Source: Verrucomicrobiota bacterium
GTDB lineage: Bacteria; Verrucomicrobiota; Verrucomicrobiia; Chthoniobacterales; UBA10450
Reading direction: 5' to 3'
Length of the DNA stretch: 64,000 bases
Assembly: GCA_003218375.1 (NCBI GenBank)
Contig: QHNH01000028.1
Location: 1 to 64,000, forward strand
A program made the position numbers and the translations under genes. Each line of letters starts with the position of its first letter. Position 1 is the stretch's first letter. The notes below the pieces were generated by a model that saw only the letters and a program-made list of their open reading frames with translations, did no database searches and had not been told where the DNA came from. Shown here piece after piece: positions 3,799 to 64,000 of this stretch.

Positions 3799-4682
3799 CG
3801 ATTGAATCGAAAAAATTTCTCCGCGGTCTCTGTGGTCGCCTCGGCGAGTTCGTTCAGCGGAATGCCCCGTGCGGCCGCGATGGTTTCCGCCACGATGCGG
3901 GTATGCGCAGGCTCGCAGCGTTTTCCGCGAAACGGCACCGGCGCCAGATACGGACAATCCGTTTCGACCATGAACTTCCAGAGCGGAACCTGGGTCGCCA
4001 CTTCGCGAACGTTGGCGCCATTCTTGAACGTGACGATGCCGGTGAAGGAGACGAGATGATCGAGGTCCAGAACTTCGTTGGCCTGTTCGATCGAACCGCC
4101 GAAGCAATGGAAAACGCCTCGCAGTTTGCCGGCGTAGGGCTGCATGATATCGATCGTGTCCTGCCACGCGTCCCGTTGGTGAATCACCACGTTCAGTCCC
4201 AATTCGACCGCGAGATCGAGCTGCTGTTCAAAGAGGCTGGCCTGTTTCGATTTGTAAGCGCCGTCGTGGATCCCGGCTTCGATTTCTTCCTCGGTTGTAT
4301 ATTGCAACGCCTTCGCCACGGCATGCGTGATTGCCTGGTGGGGAAAACTTTTCGCTCTTCGGTCTTCCAACTCCGTGCTCGGCAAGCGGTGATAATCCAG
4401 ACCCGTTTCGCCGAGCGCGACCACGCGCGGATTTGCGGCCAGTTCCCGCAACGGCGTGATCACGTCGTCGCCTGATTCCTCGACGTAAGTCGGATGGACG
4501 CCGATGACCGCGAAAACGTTCGGATGTTTTTCGGCCAATGCGACCGCGCGCAGGCTGCTCTCGATGGACGTGCCGATAGTGATGATGCGCGTGACGCCGG
4601 CTTCAGTCGCGCGTCGTAACACATCATCGAAGTCCGGCGCGAAATCCGGGTAGTCGAGATGGGCGTGGGTTTCGATGAGCAT
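3795..4682 (-). CDS. tatD: TatD family metal-dependent DNase
   Basis: TIM-barrel metallohydrolase of 295 residues, longer than the usual ~260. The metal ligands are visible as HAHLD near residue 6, ALGETGLDYH, VVIHQRD, GVFHCFGG and the late METDCPYLAP. Family members (YcfH/YabD/TatD) act as 3'-5' exonucleases on damaged DNA. A segment of about 30 extra residues after GLDYH (through ALQYTTEEEIEAGIHDGAYKS) explains the length and may be lineage-specific. It lies between fabH and the L,D-transpeptidase on the same strand and overlaps the latter (ATGA). Confidence 0.9.
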   Translation of the reverse strand: MLIETHAHLDYPDFAPDFDDVLRRATEAGVTRIITIGTSIESSLRAVALAEKHPNVFAVIGVHPTYVEESGDDVITPLRELAANPRVVALGETGLDYHRLPSTELEDRRAKSFPHQAITHAVAKALQYTTEEEIEAGIHDGAYKSKQASLFEQQLDLAVELGLNVVIHQRDAWQDTIDIMQPYAGKLRGVFHCFGGSIEQANEVLDLDHLVSFTGIVTFKNGANVREVATQVPLWKFMVETDCPYLAPVPFRGKRCEPAHTRIVAETIAAARGIPLNELAEATTETAEKFFRFNR

Positions 4683-4755
4683 TGCAGATTGCAGATTGTT
4701 GATTTCAGATTGGGAAGCAGGTCAAATCTGCGATCTGCAATCTGAATTCTGCAAT
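4683..4755. repeat. Word-repeat palindrome (word GCAGATT)
   Basis: Left arm: TGCAGATTGCAGATTG then TTTCAGATTG; right arm: CAAATCTGCGATCTGCAATC then TTCTGCAAT. It fills the whole gap between the start of tatD and the end of fabH, two genes that otherwise look like one operon. Confidence 0.75.
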
Positions 4756-4757
4756 GA

Positions 4758-7118: not shown

Positions 7119-7211
7119 GAGAGGTTGAGAGGTTGAGTGGTTGAGCGGTTGAGAGGAAAAAGGAATGTCGCCGCAAATCCTCTCAACCCTTCAACTTCTC
7201 AACCGCTCAAC
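7119..7211. repeat. Word-repeat palindrome (word GGTTGAG)
   Basis: Left arm carries four GGTTGAG(A/T/C) units; the right arm carries CTCAACC, TTCAAC, CTCAACCG and CTCAACC. The right arm provides the TGA stop of the DUF177 gene, which reads GGT-TGA at 7207-7212. Confidence 0.8.
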
Positions 7212-7659: not shown

Positions 7660-7798
7660 AAAATGACGAATGACGAATGACGAATGACGAAGGAATGATG
7701 AAGCCCGAATGACGAAGAACTGCGGCTTGACCAACGTTTCGTCATTCGAGCATTCGGGCTTGTTTCGACATTCGTCATTCGTGCTTCGTCATTCGCTG
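7660..7798. repeat. Word-repeat palindrome (word GACGAAT)
   Basis: Left arm: four GACGAAT units at 7664-7690 and two relatives (GATGAAGCCCGAATGACGAAG). Right arm: TTCGTCATTCGAGCATTCGG, then CATTCGTCATTCG, then CTTCGTCATTCG. The right arm overlaps the stop codon of coaD (GAA-TGA-CGAAG on the minus strand). Confidence 0.85.
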
Positions 7799-8273: not shown

Positions 8274-8313
8274 CAGCGAATGTCGAATGACGAATGTCGA
8301 ATGTCGAATGTCC
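8274..8313. repeat. Word repeat, single arm (GAATGTC/GAATGAC)
   Basis: Five imperfect units GCGAATGTC, GAATGAC, GAATGTC, GAATGTC, GAATGTC just upstream of coaD. No inverted partner arm is seen nearby, unlike the other copies. Confidence 0.6.
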
Positions 8314-19225: not shown

Positions 19226-19229
19226 CTTC

Positions 19230-19302
19230 TGTAGCAGCGGCCCTGTGGGCCGCTTTGGGAAATCGACGCCGCGCTCGAGCGGCCCGCAGGGCCGCTGCTA
19301 CA
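19230..19302. repeat. TGTAGC...GCTACA palindrome, copy 1
   Basis: Starts TGTAGCAGCGGCCCTGTGGG and ends with the reverse complement (GGGCCGCTGCTACA). Two GC-rich hairpins around a short centre. Lies four bases after the ptsI stop and seven before the stop of the facing nuclease gene, so it may act as a two-way terminator. Confidence 0.85.
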
Positions 19303-19308
19303 GAAGAA

Positions 19309-38502: not shown

Positions 38503-39979
38503 TTTTCCGCAGCGCATCGACGATCGCCTGCGCTTCGTCGGTCATCTTCAGCAGCTCCGGCCAGGAGCGGTGGTAGTTTTCGCCGGGTAATTTCCGCGTC
38601 GCGTCGAACCCCATGTGCGACCCGATGTTTTGCGAGGTCGGCGCGTGATCGAGCGAATCGCTCGGGTTGCGGATGATGGTGCTGTCGCGTTCCGGATCGG
38701 TGTTCGCGCAGAGACGAAAGAGCACTTCGCTCGTGTTATGCACGTCGCAATCCTCGTCCACGACCACGATGTATTTGCTGAACATCATCTGGCCCATCCC
38801 CCACAGACCGTGCATGACCTTGAAGGCTTGATACGGATATTGTTTCCGGATGCTGACGAAGACCAGATTGTGAAAGACGCCCTCGGGCGGCAGCGTCATG
38901 TCCACCAGTTCCGGGAAATTCATTTTGAAAACGGGGAGGAAAATCCGGACCGTCGCGTCGCCCATGTAGAAATCTTCCATCGGCGGAATGCCGACGATAG
39001 TTGTCGGATAAATCGCGTCGCGGCGGTGGGTGATCGCGGCGAGATGGAATACCGGGTAATCCTCGACCGCGGTATAGAATCCGGTGTGATCGCCGAACGG
39101 TCCTTCCGGCCGCATCTCACCCGGTTGGACATATCCTTCGAGGACGAAATCAACGTCGCCCGGCACTTCGAGATCGATCGTCTTGCACGGCACCAGCTCG
39201 ACTGATTTTTTGCGGATGAATCCCGCGAAAAGAATTTCGTCGAGTCCATCCGGCAACGGCGCCGTGGCCGCGAAGGTGTAAGCCGGATCGCCGCCGAGAC
39301 AGATCGCCACCGGCATCCGCTCGCCGCGTTCGTAATAACGCTTCCCGTGCCGCGCCCCGACCTTGTGCACCTGCCAATGCATTCCAGTCGTTAGGCCATC
39401 GTAAACCTGCATCCGGTACATGCCCACATTGCGCGCCCCCGTTTCCGGGTCGCGCGTATGCACATTCGGCAGCGTCACGAAGCGCCCCCCGTCCTTCGGC
39501 CAGCATTTCAGGATCGGCAGGTCGGAAAGGGAGGTTTGAGGTTTGAGGTTTGAGGTTTGATTTGGGTCGAACGTATGGACGACTTCCTGGCATGCTCCCT
39601 CCTTCGCGTGTTTCGGACGGGCGTGGAGCAAATTGAGTCCTTGTTTGAGGAGGCTCCAGCCTTCCCGCAGATCGGTCGGCGGTTTTGCCTTGAGGATCAG
39701 CTGAATTTCCTGCGCGAGATCTTCAACGCTGTTTAGCTTAAGCGCTATCGCCATCCGCCTGCGCGATCCCATCGTATTGATCGCCACCGGAAACTGTGAT
39801 GGTTTGCCGTCCACCGTCGGTTTCTCGAAGAGCAACGCTTTCCCGCCCTCCGGCGATTTCATCTCGCGGTTCGCCCATTCGCTGATGACCAGGTCCGTCT
39901 CGACCGGGACGGTGATCCGCGTCAGCTCGCCCGCCTGATCGAGCGCCTCGACGAATTGCCGGAATGAGCCGTAAGCCAT
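38498..39979 (-). CDS. ubiD: UbiD family decarboxylase
   Basis: 493 residues, close to E. coli UbiD (497). Prenylated-FMN dependent decarboxylase of 3-octaprenyl-4-hydroxybenzoate or of another aromatic acid in menaquinone synthesis. Motifs: YGSFRQFVEALDQAGELTRI, LFEKP, VTLPNVHTRDPETGARNVG, the MPVAICLGGDP region, GEMRPEGPFGDHTGFYT, HNTSEVLFRLCANTDPERDS and GSHMGFDATRK. A repeat of four AACCTCA words is embedded at about residues 139-150 (NQTSNLKPQTS), in frame, in a loop not conserved in the family. No ubiX gene is in the window. Stop codon provided by a palindrome. Confidence 0.92.
   Translation of the reverse strand: MAYGSFRQFVEALDQAGELTRITVPVETDLVISEWANREMKSPEGGKALLFEKPTVDGKPSQFPVAINTMGSRRRMAIALKLNSVEDLAQEIQLILKAKPPTDLREGWSLLKQGLNLLHARPKHAKEGACQEVVHTFDPNQTSNLKPQTSLSDLPILKCWPKDGGRFVTLPNVHTRDPETGARNVGMYRMQVYDGLTTGMHWQVHKVGARHGKRYYERGERMPVAICLGGDPAYTFAATAPLPDGLDEILFAGFIRKKSVELVPCKTIDLEVPGDVDFVLEGYVQPGEMRPEGPFGDHTGFYTAVEDYPVFHLAAITHRRDAIYPTTIVGIPPMEDFYMGDATVRIFLPVFKMNFPELVDMTLPPEGVFHNLVFVSIRKQYPYQAFKVMHGLWGMGQMMFSKYIVVVDEDCDVHNTSEVLFRLCANTDPERDSTIIRNPSDSLDHAPTSQNIGSHMGFDATRKLPGENYHRSWPELLKMTDEAQAIVDALRKR
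39531..39563. repeat. Word repeat inside ubiD (word GAGGTTT)
   Basis: Four consecutive GAGGTTT units and a partial one, single arm, within the ubiD reading frame. On the coding strand it reads AACCTCA repeats and adds about 11 residues. Confidence 0.75.
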
Positions 39980-42783: not shown

Positions 42784-42801
42784 GTTCGCTGCGCTTTCTT
42801 C

Positions 42802-42877
42802 TGTAGCCGCTTCGCTGTGTGAAGCGTCGGAAGGCGCCGACGATTGTCCTCGCGCCGCCCACAGGGCGGCGGCTACA
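42802..42877. repeat. TGTAGC...GCTACA palindrome, copy 4
   Basis: TGTAGCCGCTTCGCTGTGTG and GAAGCG at the left; CGCCGCCCACAGGGCGGCGG and CTACA at the right. Here the two hairpin types are in the opposite order to copies 2 and 3. Between two convergent genes. Confidence 0.85.
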
Positions 42878-42885
42878 GAAGAAAA

Positions 42886-43705: not shown

Positions 43706-43806
43706 TAAGAAAACGCTGAACGCCCAACGCTGAACGCCCAATGTCGAATTCAGAGCCTCTGCATTTCTGCCGATTCGGCGTTGGACGTTGGGCGTTCGGC
43801 GTTTTC
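43706..43806. repeat. Word-repeat palindrome (word CAACGCTGAACGCC)
   Basis: Left arm: GAAAACGCTGAACGCCCAAC then GCTGAACGCCCAATG; right arm: CGGCGTTGGACGTTGGGCGT then TCGGCGTTTTC. Situated in the gap between the esterase start and the end of the M23 peptidase gene, both on the minus strand. Confidence 0.8.
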
Positions 43807-45360: not shown

Positions 45361-45888
45361 ATGAGCCGTTCGCTTGCATTTGCTCTCGTCACTTTGGCGT
45401 TGGCGGCTCGTTTGTCCGCGGAGGAACCGACGCCTACGCCGGAAAAGCGCGGCTGGTTTAGTCGGTTGCTTCATCCGTTCGGGTCTTCGAACCCGGCGCC
45501 GAATTACAAGGACGCCCGGCTCCGCGGTCTCGTCCTGGAGCTGTCGCTTTCGCCCGAGCCGGTGAAACTCTCGGAGGTCCGGCAATTGCAGGTGAACCTG
45601 ACGCTGAAAAATGTCTCCAAGCGCGCCGTTGTCCTCGATTTTCCGAGCGAGCAACGGTTCGAGATTTACCTCCGCAATTCGACCGAAGCGATCCTCACGA
45701 TCTGGTCCGACAATCACGCCTTTGAAGACAAGCCCGCGACGGTGCTGATCAATCCACAGGAGCACATTGATTATCCCGCCACCATCGCGACCCGCGATCT
45801 CTCCCCGAACAAAGTCTTCATCGCCGAAGTTTTTTTCCCGCAATATCCCGAGCTGCGCATCCGGCAGAAGTTTTTGACCGCGCCATAG
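45361..45888 (+). CDS. BsuPI-domain-like secreted protein
   Basis: 175 residues, signal peptide ~1-20, then a Pro-rich linker and an Ig-like beta domain from ~55: LELSLSPEPVKL, LQVNLTLKNVSKRAVVLDFPSEQRFEIYLRN, ILTIWSDNHAF and ATVLINPQEHIDYPATI. The order 'Q-x-F-E-I-x-L ... W-S ... P-x-E' matches the BsuPI (intracellular proteinase inhibitor) domain PF12690, which in many bacteria is exported. The stop TAG is one base before a palindrome. Confidence 0.75.
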   Translation: MSRSLAFALVTLALAARLSAEEPTPTPEKRGWFSRLLHPFGSSNPAPNYKDARLRGLVLELSLSPEPVKLSEVRQLQVNLTLKNVSKRAVVLDFPSEQRFEIYLRNSTEAILTIWSDNHAFEDKPATVLINPQEHIDYPATIATRDLSPNKVFIAEVFFPQYPELRIRQKFLTAP

Positions 45889-45889
45889 C

Positions 45890-45955
45890 TGTAGCCGGGA
45901 TCCGATGATCCCGGCCGCTCAAATGCCATGACCGGGATCACCGATCCCGGCTACA
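45890..45955. repeat. TGTAGC...GCTACA palindrome, copy 5
   Basis: TGTAGCCGGGATCCGATGAT and CCCGGC, then ACCGGGATCACCGATCCCGG and CTACA. Between two genes on the plus strand. Confidence 0.8.
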
Positions 45956-45958
45956 ACT

Positions 45959-46750
45959 TTGAACTTGTTCTCCGACTATCACACCCACCCACAGGGACAT
46001 CGCGTCCAGCCTTATTGTCAGACGCTGCTCCAGCCGTGGATCGATAGCGCCCGCGCCCGCGGGCTGACCGACATCGCGTTCACCGATCACGATCGTTACC
46101 ACGCCGGAATTGATTTCGATGAGATCGATAAACTGCGCGCGGCGAATCCCGACATCAAAATTCGCGCCGGGCTCGAGCTGGATAACGATCCGGAAACATC
46201 CGCCGTCGGTCGCGAGTGGGTGGAGAAAAACTGGGCCCGGCTCGATTTCGTCCTCGGTTCCGTCCACTACCTCGATCGAGCCGATCAAATGTTCGACAGC
46301 GTTCCAGCCGGCGCCGAACAATTCGCCGACCGCAAGATCGACGAGATTTATGCCGATTATTTTCGCCGCGTCCGCGAGGTCGCAGCGACGGGCCTGGTCG
46401 ATTGCCTGTCGCATCTCGACCTGATCAAGATCCATGGCCATCGCCCGAAAGCGCCGATCGTCTATCTTGTGTCCGAGACGCTCGACTTCATCTCCACTCG
46501 CGGACTCGCCATCGAACTTTCCACCGCGGGCTGGCGTAAGCCGGTGAACGAACTTTATCCGTCTGACGAAATCATCCGGCTCGCGGTCGAAAAAAGAATT
46601 CCATTCACGACGGCGTCCGATGCCCATTCACACGCGCAACTCGGCGAGAACTATTCGCGGCTTGCGGAGAAAATGCAGCAGCTCGGGATCTCCGAAGTTT
46701 GTGTGTTCGAGCGACACAAACATCGCGTGCGTGCGCTCAGTGATTTGTAG
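45959..46750 (+). CDS. PHP-domain phosphoesterase (histidinol-phosphatase-like)
   Basis: 263 residues. PHP metal motifs: FSDYHTHPQGH near residue 4, FTDHDRYH, RAGLELDND, FVLGSVHYLD, CLSHLDLIKI and ITTASDAHSH (here FTTASDAHSH). This matches the HisK/HisJ-type histidinol-phosphatase family, but no other his gene is near, so the substrate is not certain. The start is TTG, just after a palindrome. The TAG stop is in the next palindrome. Confidence 0.85.
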   Translation: MNLFSDYHTHPQGHRVQPYCQTLLQPWIDSARARGLTDIAFTDHDRYHAGIDFDEIDKLRAANPDIKIRAGLELDNDPETSAVGREWVEKNWARLDFVLGSVHYLDRADQMFDSVPAGAEQFADRKIDEIYADYFRRVREVAATGLVDCLSHLDLIKIHGHRPKAPIVYLVSETLDFISTRGLAIELSTAGWRKPVNELYPSDEIIRLAVEKRIPFTTASDAHSHAQLGENYSRLAEKMQQLGISEVCVFERHKHRVRALSDL

Positions 46751-46804
46751 GGCAGGCGCTCCGCCTGCCAATGTTCCAACGGCAAGCGATGCGCTTGCCC
46801 TACA
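46746..46804. repeat. TGTAGGGC...GCCCTACA palindrome
   Basis: TGTAGGGCAGGCGCTCCGCC and TGCC, then GGCAAGCGATGCGCTTGCCC and TACA. Related in its end sequence to the TGTAGC family. Contains the TAG stop of the PHP gene at 46748-46750 and lies three bases from the ebfC stop. Confidence 0.8.
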
Positions 46805-46807
46805 ATT

Positions 46808-50330: not shown

Positions 50331-50370
50331 GGCGGACCCTGAAAAAGCAGGATTTGCGCCTCAGTTTTTT

Positions 50371-50410
50371 AAACTCGAAATCCGAAGCTCGAAATGCGAA
50401 ACAAATTCGA
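50371..50410. repeat. Left word-repeat arm of the four-helix-bundle cassette
   Basis: AAACTCGAAATCCGAAGCTC and GAAATGCGAAACAAATTCGA: words CGAAAT(C/G)CGAA. It ends at the first base of the enclosed gene and is the inverted partner of 50805-50833. Confidence 0.85.
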
Positions 50411-50770
50411 ATGCCCCAGGACGAAAATCCGAAACGGTTTGATCTCGAGGACCGTACCTACGCATTTGCGAAGCGCGCGCGGGCCTTCGTCAAAACACTA
50501 CCAAAAACTATTGGCAACATCGAAGATGCGCGACAACTCATTCGCTCTTCGGGATCCGTCGGCGCTAATTATATCGAAGCGAACGAAGCGTTGAGTAAAA
50601 AGGATTTCGTTTGTCGCATTAAGATCTGCCGCAAAGAGTCAAAGGAAACTCGCTATTGGCTACGATTGGTAGAAGCCGACGAGAGAGCGGAAAAAGAGCG
50701 CGATGAACTGATCCAGGAGGCGCAAGAACTAATGAACATTTTCGGGGCGATTGTTCGGAAGAGCGAGTGA
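50411..50770 (+). CDS. Four-helix-bundle protein (S23/IVP, TIGR02436 type)
   Basis: 119 residues. The pattern FDLEDRTYAFAKRARAF, IGNIEDARQLIRSSGSVGANYIEANEALSKKDFVCRIKICRKESKETRYWLRLV and the amphipathic C terminus match the four-helix-bundle proteins encoded in 23S rRNA intervening sequences (S23/IVP) and related to the accessory protein Avd of diversity-generating retroelements. Those proteins are usually basic RNA- or DNA-binding pentamers. The ATG is at the edge of the left word-repeat arm; the right arm begins 35 bases after the stop. No retroelement is near. Confidence 0.9.
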   Translation: MPQDENPKRFDLEDRTYAFAKRARAFVKTLPKTIGNIEDARQLIRSSGSVGANYIEANEALSKKDFVCRIKICRKESKETRYWLRLVEADERAEKERDELIQEAQELMNIFGAIVRKSE

Positions 50771-50782
50771 TCGGTGTTTTGA

Positions 50783-51028
50783 TCATTCCTTTTCCGGACT
50801 TGGTAATTGTTTCGGATTTCGGATTTCGAGTTTCGAAATTTCCTCTTCGAGCTCCTTCTTCAAATGCCGGCGCGCGGATTTCTTGATGGCGCGGCGTGCG
50901 GTCGCCACAGCTTGTTTTTCGGCCTGCCGTTCCTTGCGTGTCCGTGTTTCCACAGCGCTCGGCAAATGGAAAATCTTCGGGCGATTCGCGCCGACCTTCT
51001 TTTCGCTGGGTTTGGCGTAGGGATCCAT
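50783..51028 (-). CDS. Small basic coiled-coil protein (81 residues)
   Basis: Strongly charged helix: RTRKERQAEKQAVATARRAIKKSARRHLKKELEEEI, with an N-terminal MDPYAKPSEKKVGANRPKIF. The last ~18 residues (SKLEIRNPKQLPSPEKE) come from the right arm of the four-helix-bundle cassette, so the cassette is inserted in the 3' end of this gene. No family recognised. Confidence 0.6.
   Translation of the reverse strand: MDPYAKPSEKKVGANRPKIFHLPSAVETRTRKERQAEKQAVATARRAIKKSARRHLKKELEEEISKLEIRNPKQLPSPEKE
50805..50833. repeat. Right word-repeat arm of the four-helix-bundle cassette
   Basis: AATTGTTTCGGATTTCGGAT then TTCGAGTTT. Aligns to the reverse complement of 50371-50410 with one six-base gap and two changes. 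Both arms face the enclosed gene. Confidence 0.85.
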
Positions 51029-53086: not shown

Positions 53087-54151
53087 ATGGCAGCGTCCGC
53101 CGCGAACGATCAGGGTAAACTCGCTCACGTCGATGAATATCTTGCCGTCGGACAGGAGGGCGGCGCGTCGGATGTTCATCTTGGTGTAAACGCGCCGCCG
53201 ATCTGGCGCCTCCACGGAATTCTCCAGCCGATCTGGCCCGACGCCGCGAAGCTGGTGAGCGATGAAACCGCCGCCCTCGCCGAAGGGTTCCTGACCGACG
53301 TGCAAAAAATCCAGCTCAACGAGCGCGGCGACGCGGACTTCGCCTATGCGAATGCGCTTGGCCGCTTCCGGGCCAGTGTCGTGCGGCAGCGGCTCGGGAT
53401 CGATCTGGTGTTTCGCATCATCAACACAAAGGTGCGAACGATGGATGAGCTGGGCTTGCCGGAGAGCCTCAAATTGCTGACTCGCTACCAGAATGGGCTC
53501 ATCCTGGTGACCGGCCCGGTCGGCAGCGGCAAATCGACGACGCTGGCCGCCCTCGTCGAGCAGGTAAATCTCGAGCGGCGCGAGCACATCATCACGCTCG
53601 AGGACCCGATCGAATACATTTTCGAGCCGAAAGGCTGCCACATCACTCAACGCGAAGTGCACACCCACACCCGCTCGTTCGGCGCGGCCTTGCGCGGCGC
53701 GCTCCGCGAAGATCCCGATGTCATTATGGTGGGCGAAATGCGCGACCTGGAAACGATCTCGCTTGCCATCACCGCGGCGGAAACGGGGCACCTGGTTCTC
53801 GGGACCCTTCACACGAGCAACGCCTCGCGCACGCTGGATCGCCTGCTCGATGTTTTCCCGGTCGATCAACAGGAACAAATCCGGATCATGGTGAGCGAAT
53901 CGCTCCGCGGAATTATCAGCCAGCAACTGGTGCCGCGCGCCGACGGCAAAGGCCGCGTCCTGGCGCTGGAAACGCTGACCAATACGCCGGCTGTCGCGAA
54001 CGTGATTCGCGAAGCGAAAACCTACATGCTCCCCGGCATTATCCAGACCGGCAAGAAACAGGGAATGCAGGCGATGGACGATGCGCTGGCGGCGCTGGCC
54101 GAGCGCGGACTTGTTGCCGCCGAAGAAGCCGACGCGCGGCTAAAAGGATGA
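53087..54151 (+). CDS. pilT: Type IV pilus retraction ATPase PilT (copy 1)
   Basis: 354 residues. Hexameric motor that disassembles type IV pili. GGASDVHLGVNAPPIWRLHG N-terminal region, Walker A GPVGSGKSTT, the Asp box LEDPIEYIFEPK, Walker B region ALREDPDVIMVGEMRDLETI, His box TGHLVLGTLHTSNAS. Ends at a word repeat whose GGATGA supplies the stop. A second pilT-type gene follows. No pilB or pilC in the window. Confidence 0.95.
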   Translation: MAASAANDQGKLAHVDEYLAVGQEGGASDVHLGVNAPPIWRLHGILQPIWPDAAKLVSDETAALAEGFLTDVQKIQLNERGDADFAYANALGRFRASVVRQRLGIDLVFRIINTKVRTMDELGLPESLKLLTRYQNGLILVTGPVGSGKSTTLAALVEQVNLERREHIITLEDPIEYIFEPKGCHITQREVHTHTRSFGAALRGALREDPDVIMVGEMRDLETISLAITAAETGHLVLGTLHTSNASRTLDRLLDVFPVDQQEQIRIMVSESLRGIISQQLVPRADGKGRVLALETLTNTPAVANVIREAKTYMLPGIIQTGKKQGMQAMDDALAALAERGLVAAEEADARLKG

Positions 54152-54236
54152 AGGAGGAAGGATGAAGGATGAAAGATGAAAGAAGAGTGAAGGTTTCCCG
54201 GTTTCATCCTTCATCCCTCATCCTTCATCCTTTCTG
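54147..54236. repeat. Word-repeat palindrome (word GGATGAA)
   Basis: Left arm: GGATGAAGGAGGAAGGATGA then AGGATGAAAGATGAAAG; right arm: TTTCATCCTTCATCCCTCAT then CCTTCATCCTTT. The stop TGA of pilT copy 1 is the first word. It fills the whole gap between the two pilT genes. Confidence 0.85.
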
Positions 54237-55410: not shown

Positions 55411-55503
55411 CTCGGAGGGACGTGCTTCCGCACGTCAGACTATTTTCGCCGTCGCTCTGAGGCTCAGAAAAGATGGGACGTGCAGAAGCACGTCCCTCCG
55501 AGA
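55411..55503. repeat. CTCGGAGGGACG palindrome
   Basis: Starts CTCGGAGGGACGTGCTTCCG and CACGTC; ends GGGACGTGCAGAAGCACGTC and CCTCCGAG. Each half is a hairpin and the ends are complementary. Its left half recurs inside dnaX. Gap between pilT copy 2 and the prepilin gene (convergent). Confidence 0.85.
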
Positions 55504-63081: not shown

Positions 63082-63086
63082 AGCTC

Positions 63087-63200
63087 CGGAACACAGGCAT
63101 TTTGCCTGTGTGGCAGCGGACATTCTGTCCGCTGTCTTAGTCGTAAATCATCAGCGGGCTGCAAGCCCGCTGGCCGCACAGGCTGAAAGCCTGTGTTCCG
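63087..63200. repeat. CGGAACACAGG...CCTGTGTTCCG palindrome
   Basis: Outer arms CGGAACACAGGCATTTTGCC and GGCTGAAAGCCTGTGTTCCG; inner hairpins CAGCGGACATTCTGTCCGCT and AGCGGGCTGCAAGCCCGCT. Overlaps the end of nuoN and appears to encode its last ~15 residues. Confidence 0.85.
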
Positions 63201-64000
63201 TAGTCCGCCGCAACGAGTTCACGACCGGCTGCGGATAGATTCCCAGAACTATGATGCCCGCCATCATTGCGAGCATCGCTAGCCGCGAGATGCCGCTGAC
63301 GGGAACCGCGACGTCGGCGGCCGGTGCTTCCCAATACATCGCGCGGACGACTTTGAAATAGTAATAGAATCCGCAGGCAACGGTGATCACGCCGACGACG
63401 ATCAGCGCGGTCTGTTGGTGGGCGATCGCGGCATTGAAGATATAGAATTTTCCGAGGAAACCGGCGGTAAACGGCAGGCCGGCGAGCGAAGCCATCGCGA
63501 TCAGCATGGCGAACGCGAGGAAAGGAGAACGCTTGGCCAGGCCATTGAAGTCTTCGATGTTTTCCCCGGTTTGCTGCGCTACCACGACGAGAACGGCGAA
63601 ACTCAGGAGCGTCATGAGCAGATAGGCGACGAGATAAAACACCACCGCTTCGCCGGCCAGGCAGACGACGCCGATGAGCAGGTAGCCAGCGTGAGCGATG
63701 CTCGAATAGGCGAGGAGCCGCTTGAGGTTGGTCTGGGGAAGCGCGGCGAGATTGCCGTAGATCAATGTGCCGAGTGCGACCAGGACGAGGAGACGTTCCA
63801 TTTGGGGCATGACCAGAAACGGTTGCAGGACCCGCAGCAGGACCACGAAGCCGGCGGCCTTCGAGCCGACGGAAAGGAAGGCCGTCACCGGAGTGGGCGC
63901 GCCCTGGTAAACGTCGGGCACCCAGATTTGGAACGGCACGGCGGCGATCTTGAAGCCGAGCGCGACGAGCACGAGCAGCATTCCGAAAAGGGCAGGAGCG
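63151..64000 (-). CDS. nuoN: NADH-quinone oxidoreductase subunit N (partial)
   Basis: C-terminal ~280 residues; the reading frame stays open past the right window edge. Membrane subunit of complex I that takes part in proton pumping. Antiporter-like motifs: FKIAAVPFQIWVPDVYQGAPTPVTAFLSVGSKAAGF, LKRLLAYSSIAHAGYLLIG and SLAGLPFTAGFLGKFYIFNAA. The end ...PQPVVNSLRRTT is followed by EHRLSACAASGLAAR, translated from a palindrome, so the protein is about 15 residues longer than its natural end. Confidence 0.95.
   Translation of the reverse strand, partial: APALFGMLLVLVALGFKIAAVPFQIWVPDVYQGAPTPVTAFLSVGSKAAGFVVLLRVLQPFLVMPQMERLLVLVALGTLIYGNLAALPQTNLKRLLAYSSIAHAGYLLIGVVCLAGEAVVFYLVAYLLMTLLSFAVLVVVAQQTGENIEDFNGLAKRSPFLAFAMLIAMASLAGLPFTAGFLGKFYIFNAAIAHQQTALIVVGVITVACGFYYYFKVVRAMYWEAPAADVAVPVSGISRLAMLAMMAGIIVLGIYPQPVVNSLRRTTEHRLSACAASGLAAR

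Follow-up and report, generated by a model that had tools for sequence, protein, structure and literature searches.

An S23 gene enclosed by inverted heptamer arrays

The window analysed here, the whole stretch of 64,000 nucleotides, contains towards its end a compact cassette in which a small gene is enclosed by two inverted arrays of short words. Its components are:

50366–50411, + strand: left (5′) arm, AAACTCG-AAATCCG-AAGCTCG-AAATGCG-(AAACA)-AATTCGAA, heptamers with one phase break; pairs with 50800–50838
50411–50770, + strand: S23/IVP four-helix-bundle gene, 119 aa, with its ATG at 50411, the inner edge of the left arm
50800–50842, − strand: right (3′) arm, an inverted copy of the word array (TTTCGGATTTCGGATTTCGAGTTTCGAAA)
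50783–51028, − strand: neighbour gene, 81 aa, its C-terminal tail encoded by the right arm

Both arms are built of CGAAATCC-type (AAATCCG-type) heptamers and are complementary at 83% over 29 nt (50366–50394 with 50810–50838) or, in a longer register, at 76% over 37 nt (50375–50411 with 50800–50836). The initial annotation, which had described inverted arms, an S23/IVP-type four-helix-bundle gene starting at the edge of the left arm and a right arm running into the 3′ end of the next gene, was thus correct on each point. The protein encoded by that next gene ends in ...EEEISKLEIRNPKQLPSPEKE* in the window, and in species whose site lacks a word hairpin its tails are shorter and different (...EEMAEN*, ...ELEEDE*, ...LDETSV* and ...LEETV*).

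The enclosed protein matches TIGR02436 (71 bits against a cut-off of 24), PF05635 (23S_rRNA_IVP; E 1e-13, 51.7 against a cut-off of 33.8) and PDB entry 2rld (E 4e-12). Its AF2 model has four helices with a pLDDT of 93.9, and Foldseek returned 2rld and 2gsc as the best matches to this model (TM up to 0.77), with Avd (4dwl/8ub7) also found; the predicted fold is that of 2RLD, 2GSC and Avd. Profile matches of the protein were to PF05635 and TIGR02436, with no transposase domain, and Rfam gave no match anywhere in the window on either strand, the cassette being located between protein-coding genes.

Inverted arms around S23 genes in this genome, its relatives and other phyla

This genome (3.96 Mb in 52 contigs) has 13 TIGR02436 genes, and inspection showed nearly all to be flanked by mirrored arrays of short words, each gene with a word of its own: GATTCAG, AATTCGG, GGATGAG, AAGTAGG, GTTGAAGC (L005, where one arm side is hidden by an N gap), TCGATTT and AATCGTG for the first seven, and ATTTCAG, the octamer GAAAAGCT, AAATCCG, AAGCTCC, GGATGAA (L012) and AATGACG for the eighth to thirteenth. 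By score no word is common to any two of the 13, those of L003 and L012 looking alike by eye only. L012 (G000:C8:52789–52989) is a truncated S23 gene with AAGGATG-type arms, possibly an intermediate on the way from full cassette to gene-less hairpin. A peculiarity of the clade formed by L010, L011 and L013 is a phase break after several heptamers in both arms, an 11-nt step (CAGAGAA, GAAGGAATGACG, GAAACAAATTCG) that is kept in gene-less copies. Resident paralogues that are 60–76% identical usually carry different words, so that either specificity drifts fast or the arms drift alone, and this counts against the explanation that we favour below.

TIGR02436 was present in 32 of the 39 genomes that we searched, a count that includes this one. 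Arms were scored for 147 S23 genes, drawn from this genome and 29 relatives (30 genomes), by aligning the 250 nt upstream of each gene to the reverse-complemented 300 nt downstream. The score was at least 28 in 82% within the locus compared to 3.6% between loci, 0.35–0.5% at randomly chosen positions with identical geometry and 0.6% for ORF-anchored controls; when each site cluster contributed a single value, 79% of 66 clusters reached this score. The random-position and ORF-anchored controls rule out chance or generic intergenic repeats as an explanation. The best arm period, determined for 120 loci, was 7 in 75, 14 in 21, 8 in 12 and 6 in 7. S23 genes with flanks common to different species amount to 163 pairs, which indicates that most gene-bearing copies are passed on at a fixed site and seldom move themselves; duplication within one genome is rare. 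The gene is under purifying selection, with a median dN/dS of 0.065 in the 56 pairs for which dS was finite (0.077 when only non-orthologous ones are taken); synonymous sites were saturated in the majority of pairs.

In a wider survey, a scan of 84,980 species genomes yielded at least 579 relatives, of which we took the best 80, a set biased to the classic S23 subfamily; these belong to Acidobacteriota, Bacteroidota, Pseudomonadota, Planctomycetota, Patescibacteria, Chloroflexota, an archaeon and others. Among the 79 that could be scored, 71% had a score of at least 30 within the locus versus 2.9% between loci. Heptamer arms were also found at all ten plasmid S23 loci inspected, mostly cyanobacterial (GGGAGTA, CAGGAGT, GGGAACA, GGGTGTA, AGGTGAC), and at 87% of 30 S23 loci in the family set of a Lysobacterales (Xanthomonadaceae-type) genome, many with GGGATTC/GGGAATC. 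No relative turned up in viral contigs searched with the window protein. We therefore regard the inverted-arm architecture around S23 genes as established beyond reasonable doubt. The initial annotation had held that the same architecture exists outside rRNA, which proves true and is not limited to this lineage, and had named as its refutation other TIGR02436 genes without arms. That condition fails, since nearly all of these genes do have arms, whether in this genome, in its relatives or in other phyla.

Two of the plasmid cassettes interrupt recognizable gene sets, one lying between cas6 and cas4 (L332, Anabaena sp. 90) and the other between nrdB and nrdA, in opposite orientation to the operon (L333, Nostoc edaphicum). 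S23 genes in CRISPR loci have been noted as functional candidates (PMC3936711); in the one case here, cas6/cas4, insertion may be the simpler reading.

Arm words and protein lineage

Neighbours on the protein tree carry similar words (AACGYCC, GTTGAGA, GTGACAT, CTCGTG, ATTTCAG, ATTTGCG, AAACCGG, AAGGATG, AAGTAGG, GCTGAAA and others). We quantified this by pairing the upstream arm at each locus with downstream arms from other loci, a design in which shared gene leaders do not produce a cross-arm signal. With flank-homologous pairs excluded, protein identity correlated with cross-arm score (Mantel rho 0.18, against a maximum of 0.03 in 200 permutations), and at non-orthologous sites a cross-arm score of at least 28 was reached by 84 of 312 pairs with protein identity of 60% or more but only 16 of 8217 below 40%. 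The word tracks the protein clade at unrelated sites. The mean arm score was nonetheless 42.5 within a locus versus 26.9 for same-clade loci elsewhere; arms within a locus being more alike than same-clade arms, they also change together locally. That each copy has its own word, and that the word follows the protein clade, goes beyond what the initial annotation proposed.

Gene-less hairpins in the window and the genome

Ten word hairpins without a gene occur in the window, eight of which carry words of resident S23 genes (coordinates without strand):

1377–1495: AAGCTCC, the word of resident L011, with the same CAGAGAA phase break
4680–4756: ATTGCAG/ATTTCAG, the word of resident L008
6825–6911: GAATCGT/GAATCGA, the word of resident L007
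7122–7213: octamer GGTTGAGA, carried by no resident gene; matched best by the S23 arm L123, from a different genus
7662–7793: AATGACG, the word of resident L013
17347–17417: octamer GTTGAAGC, the word of resident L005
42156–42284: AATGACG, the word of L013
43707–43808: AACGCCC/AACGCTG, S23 clade L109/L144; not found with any resident gene
54143–54233: AAGGATG, the word of resident L003
57215–57304: octamer of GTTGAAGC type, the word of L005

For the hairpins at 7122 and 43707, matching S23 arms come only from other genomes; the one at 43707 folds far better than shuffled sequence (z −7.9). Two heptamer arrays at 8277–8312 (CGAATGT, five units) and 39531–39560 (GAGGTTT, four units), for which no mirrored partner was detected, are possibly decayed or half hairpins. 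The window also has GC-rich palindromes of a REP/REPIN-like kind (19226–19306, 42795–42884, 45884–45961, 46745–46805, 55411–55502 and 63084–63203), several of the GC-rich ones with GTAG-type ends (CTTCTGTAGC..., TTGTAGGGC...), and the genome has 12 Y1 transposase matches, so that a second, RAYT-type hairpin system may coexist.

In a 464-kb sample, about one-eighth of the genome, 35 word hairpins passed our filter (75 per Mb), at least one of them, L274:19290, being an apparent false positive; 200 kb of block-shuffled sequence gave none. Densities elsewhere were 7.5 per Mb in the congener G003 and 2.5 per Mb in G019, where the single match resembles a REP rather than a heptamer hairpin. A resident S23 gene was the best match for 23 of the 35 hairpins and tied for two, the mean best score being 51.6 against resident S23 arms versus about 21–28 against those from other genomes. 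Of three hairpins in G003, a single one had a resident gene as its best match. Word counts vary strongly among congeners: matches to AATGACG numbered 146 here and 101 in G005, with none in G003 or G007. The AACGCCC and GGTTGAGA families have no cognate gene in this genome, which implies that resident genes are not needed for hairpins to persist.

Gene-less and empty forms at orthologous sites

The flanks of the window cassette could be located in all seven congeners. Four of these (G001, G002, G004 and G007) have no hairpin at the orthologous site, and two others, G003 and G006, have gene-less hairpins with the word of the window cassette. In the G003 form the cassette leader survives as far as roughly codon ten of the S23 gene, and the G006 form retains sequence resembling the 3′ end of the gene. 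Our reading is that both arose by internal deletion, although these are only two cases and the alignments do not formally exclude the reverse order, gain of a gene. In G005 (L171:1358–1500 on G005:C23, equivalent to window 50360–50838), an unrelated hairpin (TCATCCCGAGCGAAGTCGAGGGATCCCG...) takes the place of the S23 cassette, suggesting that the site is a shared hot spot for hairpin elements.

Near-clean empty sites were found in G019 for two gene-less hairpins of this genome. The GTTGAGAG hairpin lies behind a stop codon, and the AGGTTTCAG hairpin (L289:14868–14955 on G000:C10) is in frame inside dxr (DXP reductoisomerase), where it adds ~30 residues, an arrangement reminiscent of the Rickettsia palindromic elements in ORFs. 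At these two junctions, the best and only clean ones, judged between species, no target-site duplication is visible, and no target-site signature was found, the between-species junctions being too diverged. The comparison of sites with and without the cassette that the initial annotation called for could thus be met in part: empty and gene-less sites exist between species, but there was no near-identical strain pair for a gene-bearing copy, and the clean empty sites it anticipated are near-clean and belong to gene-less hairpins. Its suggestion that the gene-less palindromes are non-autonomous relatives of the cassette gains support from the gene-less forms at the same site, word identity with resident arms and the empty sites, and that the gene-less copies derive from the S23 element appears to us very probable.

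Proposed mechanism and alternative explanations

The reading that we favour, with a probability of about 0.7, is a mobile hairpin element made of two inverted short-word arrays (usually of 7 nt), with an S23 gene in the full form and MITE-like gene-less derivatives, in which binding and movement are both inferred. The S23 protein would bind the heptamer arrays of its own lineage and help the hairpin multiply, with gene-less hairpins being copied in trans, as MITEs or REPINs are. The solved S23 homologue 2GSC is reportedly a pentamer, going by the title of its paper. For the copying itself, enzymes of host replication or repair would use the extruded single-strand hairpin and place new copies mostly between genes, with no long duplication of the target; at such sites the hairpin may be tolerated as a transcript end or RNase III site, and the gene would mostly stay in place while hairpins multiply, as with RAYTs. 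Recognition of the word by the S23 protein seems likely to us in the absence of binding data, and the protein would then be a word-specific and probably non-enzymatic one. Copying by host enzymes is favoured because the element has no enzyme domain and the genome neither a reverse transcriptase nor a consistent Y1 transposase; with no transposition data, this step is tentative. Besides the divergent words of similar paralogues, points against the overall reading are the hairpin families that have no cognate gene here, the rarity of movement by gene-bearing copies, the lack of a target-site signature and the G003 hairpins, most of which are not matched best by a resident gene.

A different assignment of roles would make the hairpins the mobile part, moved by unrelated machinery, and the S23 genes guests that insert into the loops of existing hairpins. 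Gene-less hairpins are indeed far more numerous than genes, some words have no resident gene, and fairly similar S23 paralogues of one genome differ in word. A guest would, however, be expected to have mixed words, whereas words track protein clades at non-orthologous sites, and the gene-less hairpins at the orthologous site retain pieces of the S23 gene, which leaves this possibility improbable. Selection could alternatively act on RNA, as in 23S intervening sequences (IVSs), with the transcript folding and being cut by RNase III, S23 protecting or chaperoning the RNA, and arms kept for RNA pairing instead of DNA recognition. S23/IVP genes owe their name to intervening elements of 23S rRNA, RNase III cuts the 28-bp stem that bounds the IVS of Coxiella (PMC4990558), and some of the elements here lie directly behind a stop codon. 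An RNA stem should favour G-U pairs; yet mismatches in the arms, read on the gene strand, comprise 112 G-U and 121 A-C, and without such strand asymmetry we reject selection on an RNA stem. Neither the S23 genes that oppose the operon they interrupt (nrdB/nrdA in Nostoc) nor the lineage-specific words fit an RNA-level role, which we consider unlikely.

Were S23 instead a repressor-like protein acting on its own arms to control its own expression, with the scattered hairpins resulting from ordinary repeat instability or recombination, one gene per word and the divergent words of paralogues would fit insulation between regulators, and the strong purifying selection is also in its favour. This would leave unexplained the tens to hundreds of gene-less hairpins at new sites that share the same irregular arm features, the in-frame dxr insertion included, and we give it little credence. 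There remains an enzyme acting in trans. The likeness of S23 to its structural homologue Avd would point to a reverse transcriptase, and the RAYT-REPIN parallel to a Y1/HUH transposase; for the latter, the numbers of Y1 and S23 genes are correlated across 39 relatives (rho 0.72). The reverse transcriptase was rejected as unlikely since PF00078 is absent from this genome (98% complete) and likewise from 13 others that each have five or more S23 genes. As for Y1, it was not detected in one S23-bearing relative, and in a second family went undetected at about equal rates in S23-positive (10 of 42) and S23-negative (25 of 75) genomes; the correlation among relatives thus has no counterpart there, and this partner too was rejected. 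Of the explanations considered, a trans-acting enzyme is the one to which we give least weight.

The mobile hairpin element that we favour may extend further. Heptamer repeats have been described in X. campestris, where GGGAATC occurs in 186 dispersed arrays and 70 mirrored pairs with no general association with known mobile elements, and in Nostoc (GGGGAYT; both PMC4692102), and others of unknown origin are cyanobacterial STRRs (PMC2670836), repeats in the trnL P6b stem (PMC4476775) and TAACTGA of Beggiatoaceae (PMC4679880). In word, the GGGAATC repeats of Xanthomonas match the S23 arms of the Xanthomonadaceae family, and only for that family is such identity apparent; STRRs, trnL P6b repeats and TAACTGA are candidates, their identity with S23 words being inferred. 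In its broadest form, S23/IVP would be the word-reading part of a bacteria-wide class of enzyme-less mobile hairpins with its own heptamer in each lineage, a protein-to-DNA code readable from genome sequences, and most unexplained heptamer repeats (STRRs, GGGAATC, TAACTGA, trnL P6b and perhaps 23S IVSs) would be its remains, a generalization that we hold to be possible but short of an even chance.

The proposal provides a testable role for a widespread family in which solved members carry either an unknown-function annotation or a name taken from their ribosomal context, and it suggests an origin for the heptamer tandem repeats reported, without one, in cyanobacteria since the 1990s and later in Xanthomonas and Beggiatoaceae. 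The hundreds of protein-word pairs are a natural data set for learning a recognition code, and the question is raised of how an element without an enzyme spreads.

Comparison with known systems

Our search of the open-licence literature turned up no report of a link between S23 genes and heptamer repeats; subscription work on cyanobacterial tandem heptamers, including studies of small mobile repeats in Nostoc, may touch on parts of the finding. The heptamer repeats discussed above (GGGAATC, GGGGAYT, STRRs, trnL P6b and TAACTGA) resemble the arms in their 7-nt unit, mostly intergenic location and frequent mirroring into hairpins but, as far as searched, were described without an S23 gene. The closest precedent in gene content is the S23/IVP ORF in IVS stems of Leptospira and Coxiella 23S rRNA, proposed to be selfish and horizontally moved (PMC4990558). 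There, too, inverted arms pair into a stem that carries the ORF in its loop; known IVSs, however, occupy fixed 23S rRNA helices, whereas the element here lies between or in protein genes and has word-array arms, lineage-specific words and many gene-less copies. With REPIN-RAYT systems (PMC3116915) it shares short mirrored repeats in many, largely intergenic copies, each repeat family having a single cognate gene that for the most part stays at its inherited site, a likeness limited by the word families that lack such a gene. RAYTs, on the other hand, are Y1/HUH (PF01797) transposases and S23 is a PF05635 protein with no known catalytic site, and a REP is a single short palindrome with a GTAG-type tag, unlike these arms of tandem heptamers. 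As in MITEs, gene-less forms keep the inverted ends of the gene-bearing element (G003, G006 and the shared arms), but here there is no transposase parent, and neither a defined terminal inverted repeat nor a target duplication was found. Avd of diversity-generating retroelements (4DWL, 8UB7) has the four-helix-bundle fold in common with S23 but works with a reverse transcriptase, which this genome lacks. Because the element fails a defining feature of each of IVSs, REPIN-RAYT systems and MITEs, we class it as none of them. The findings as a whole suggest a hitherto unrecognized class of mobile hairpin element.
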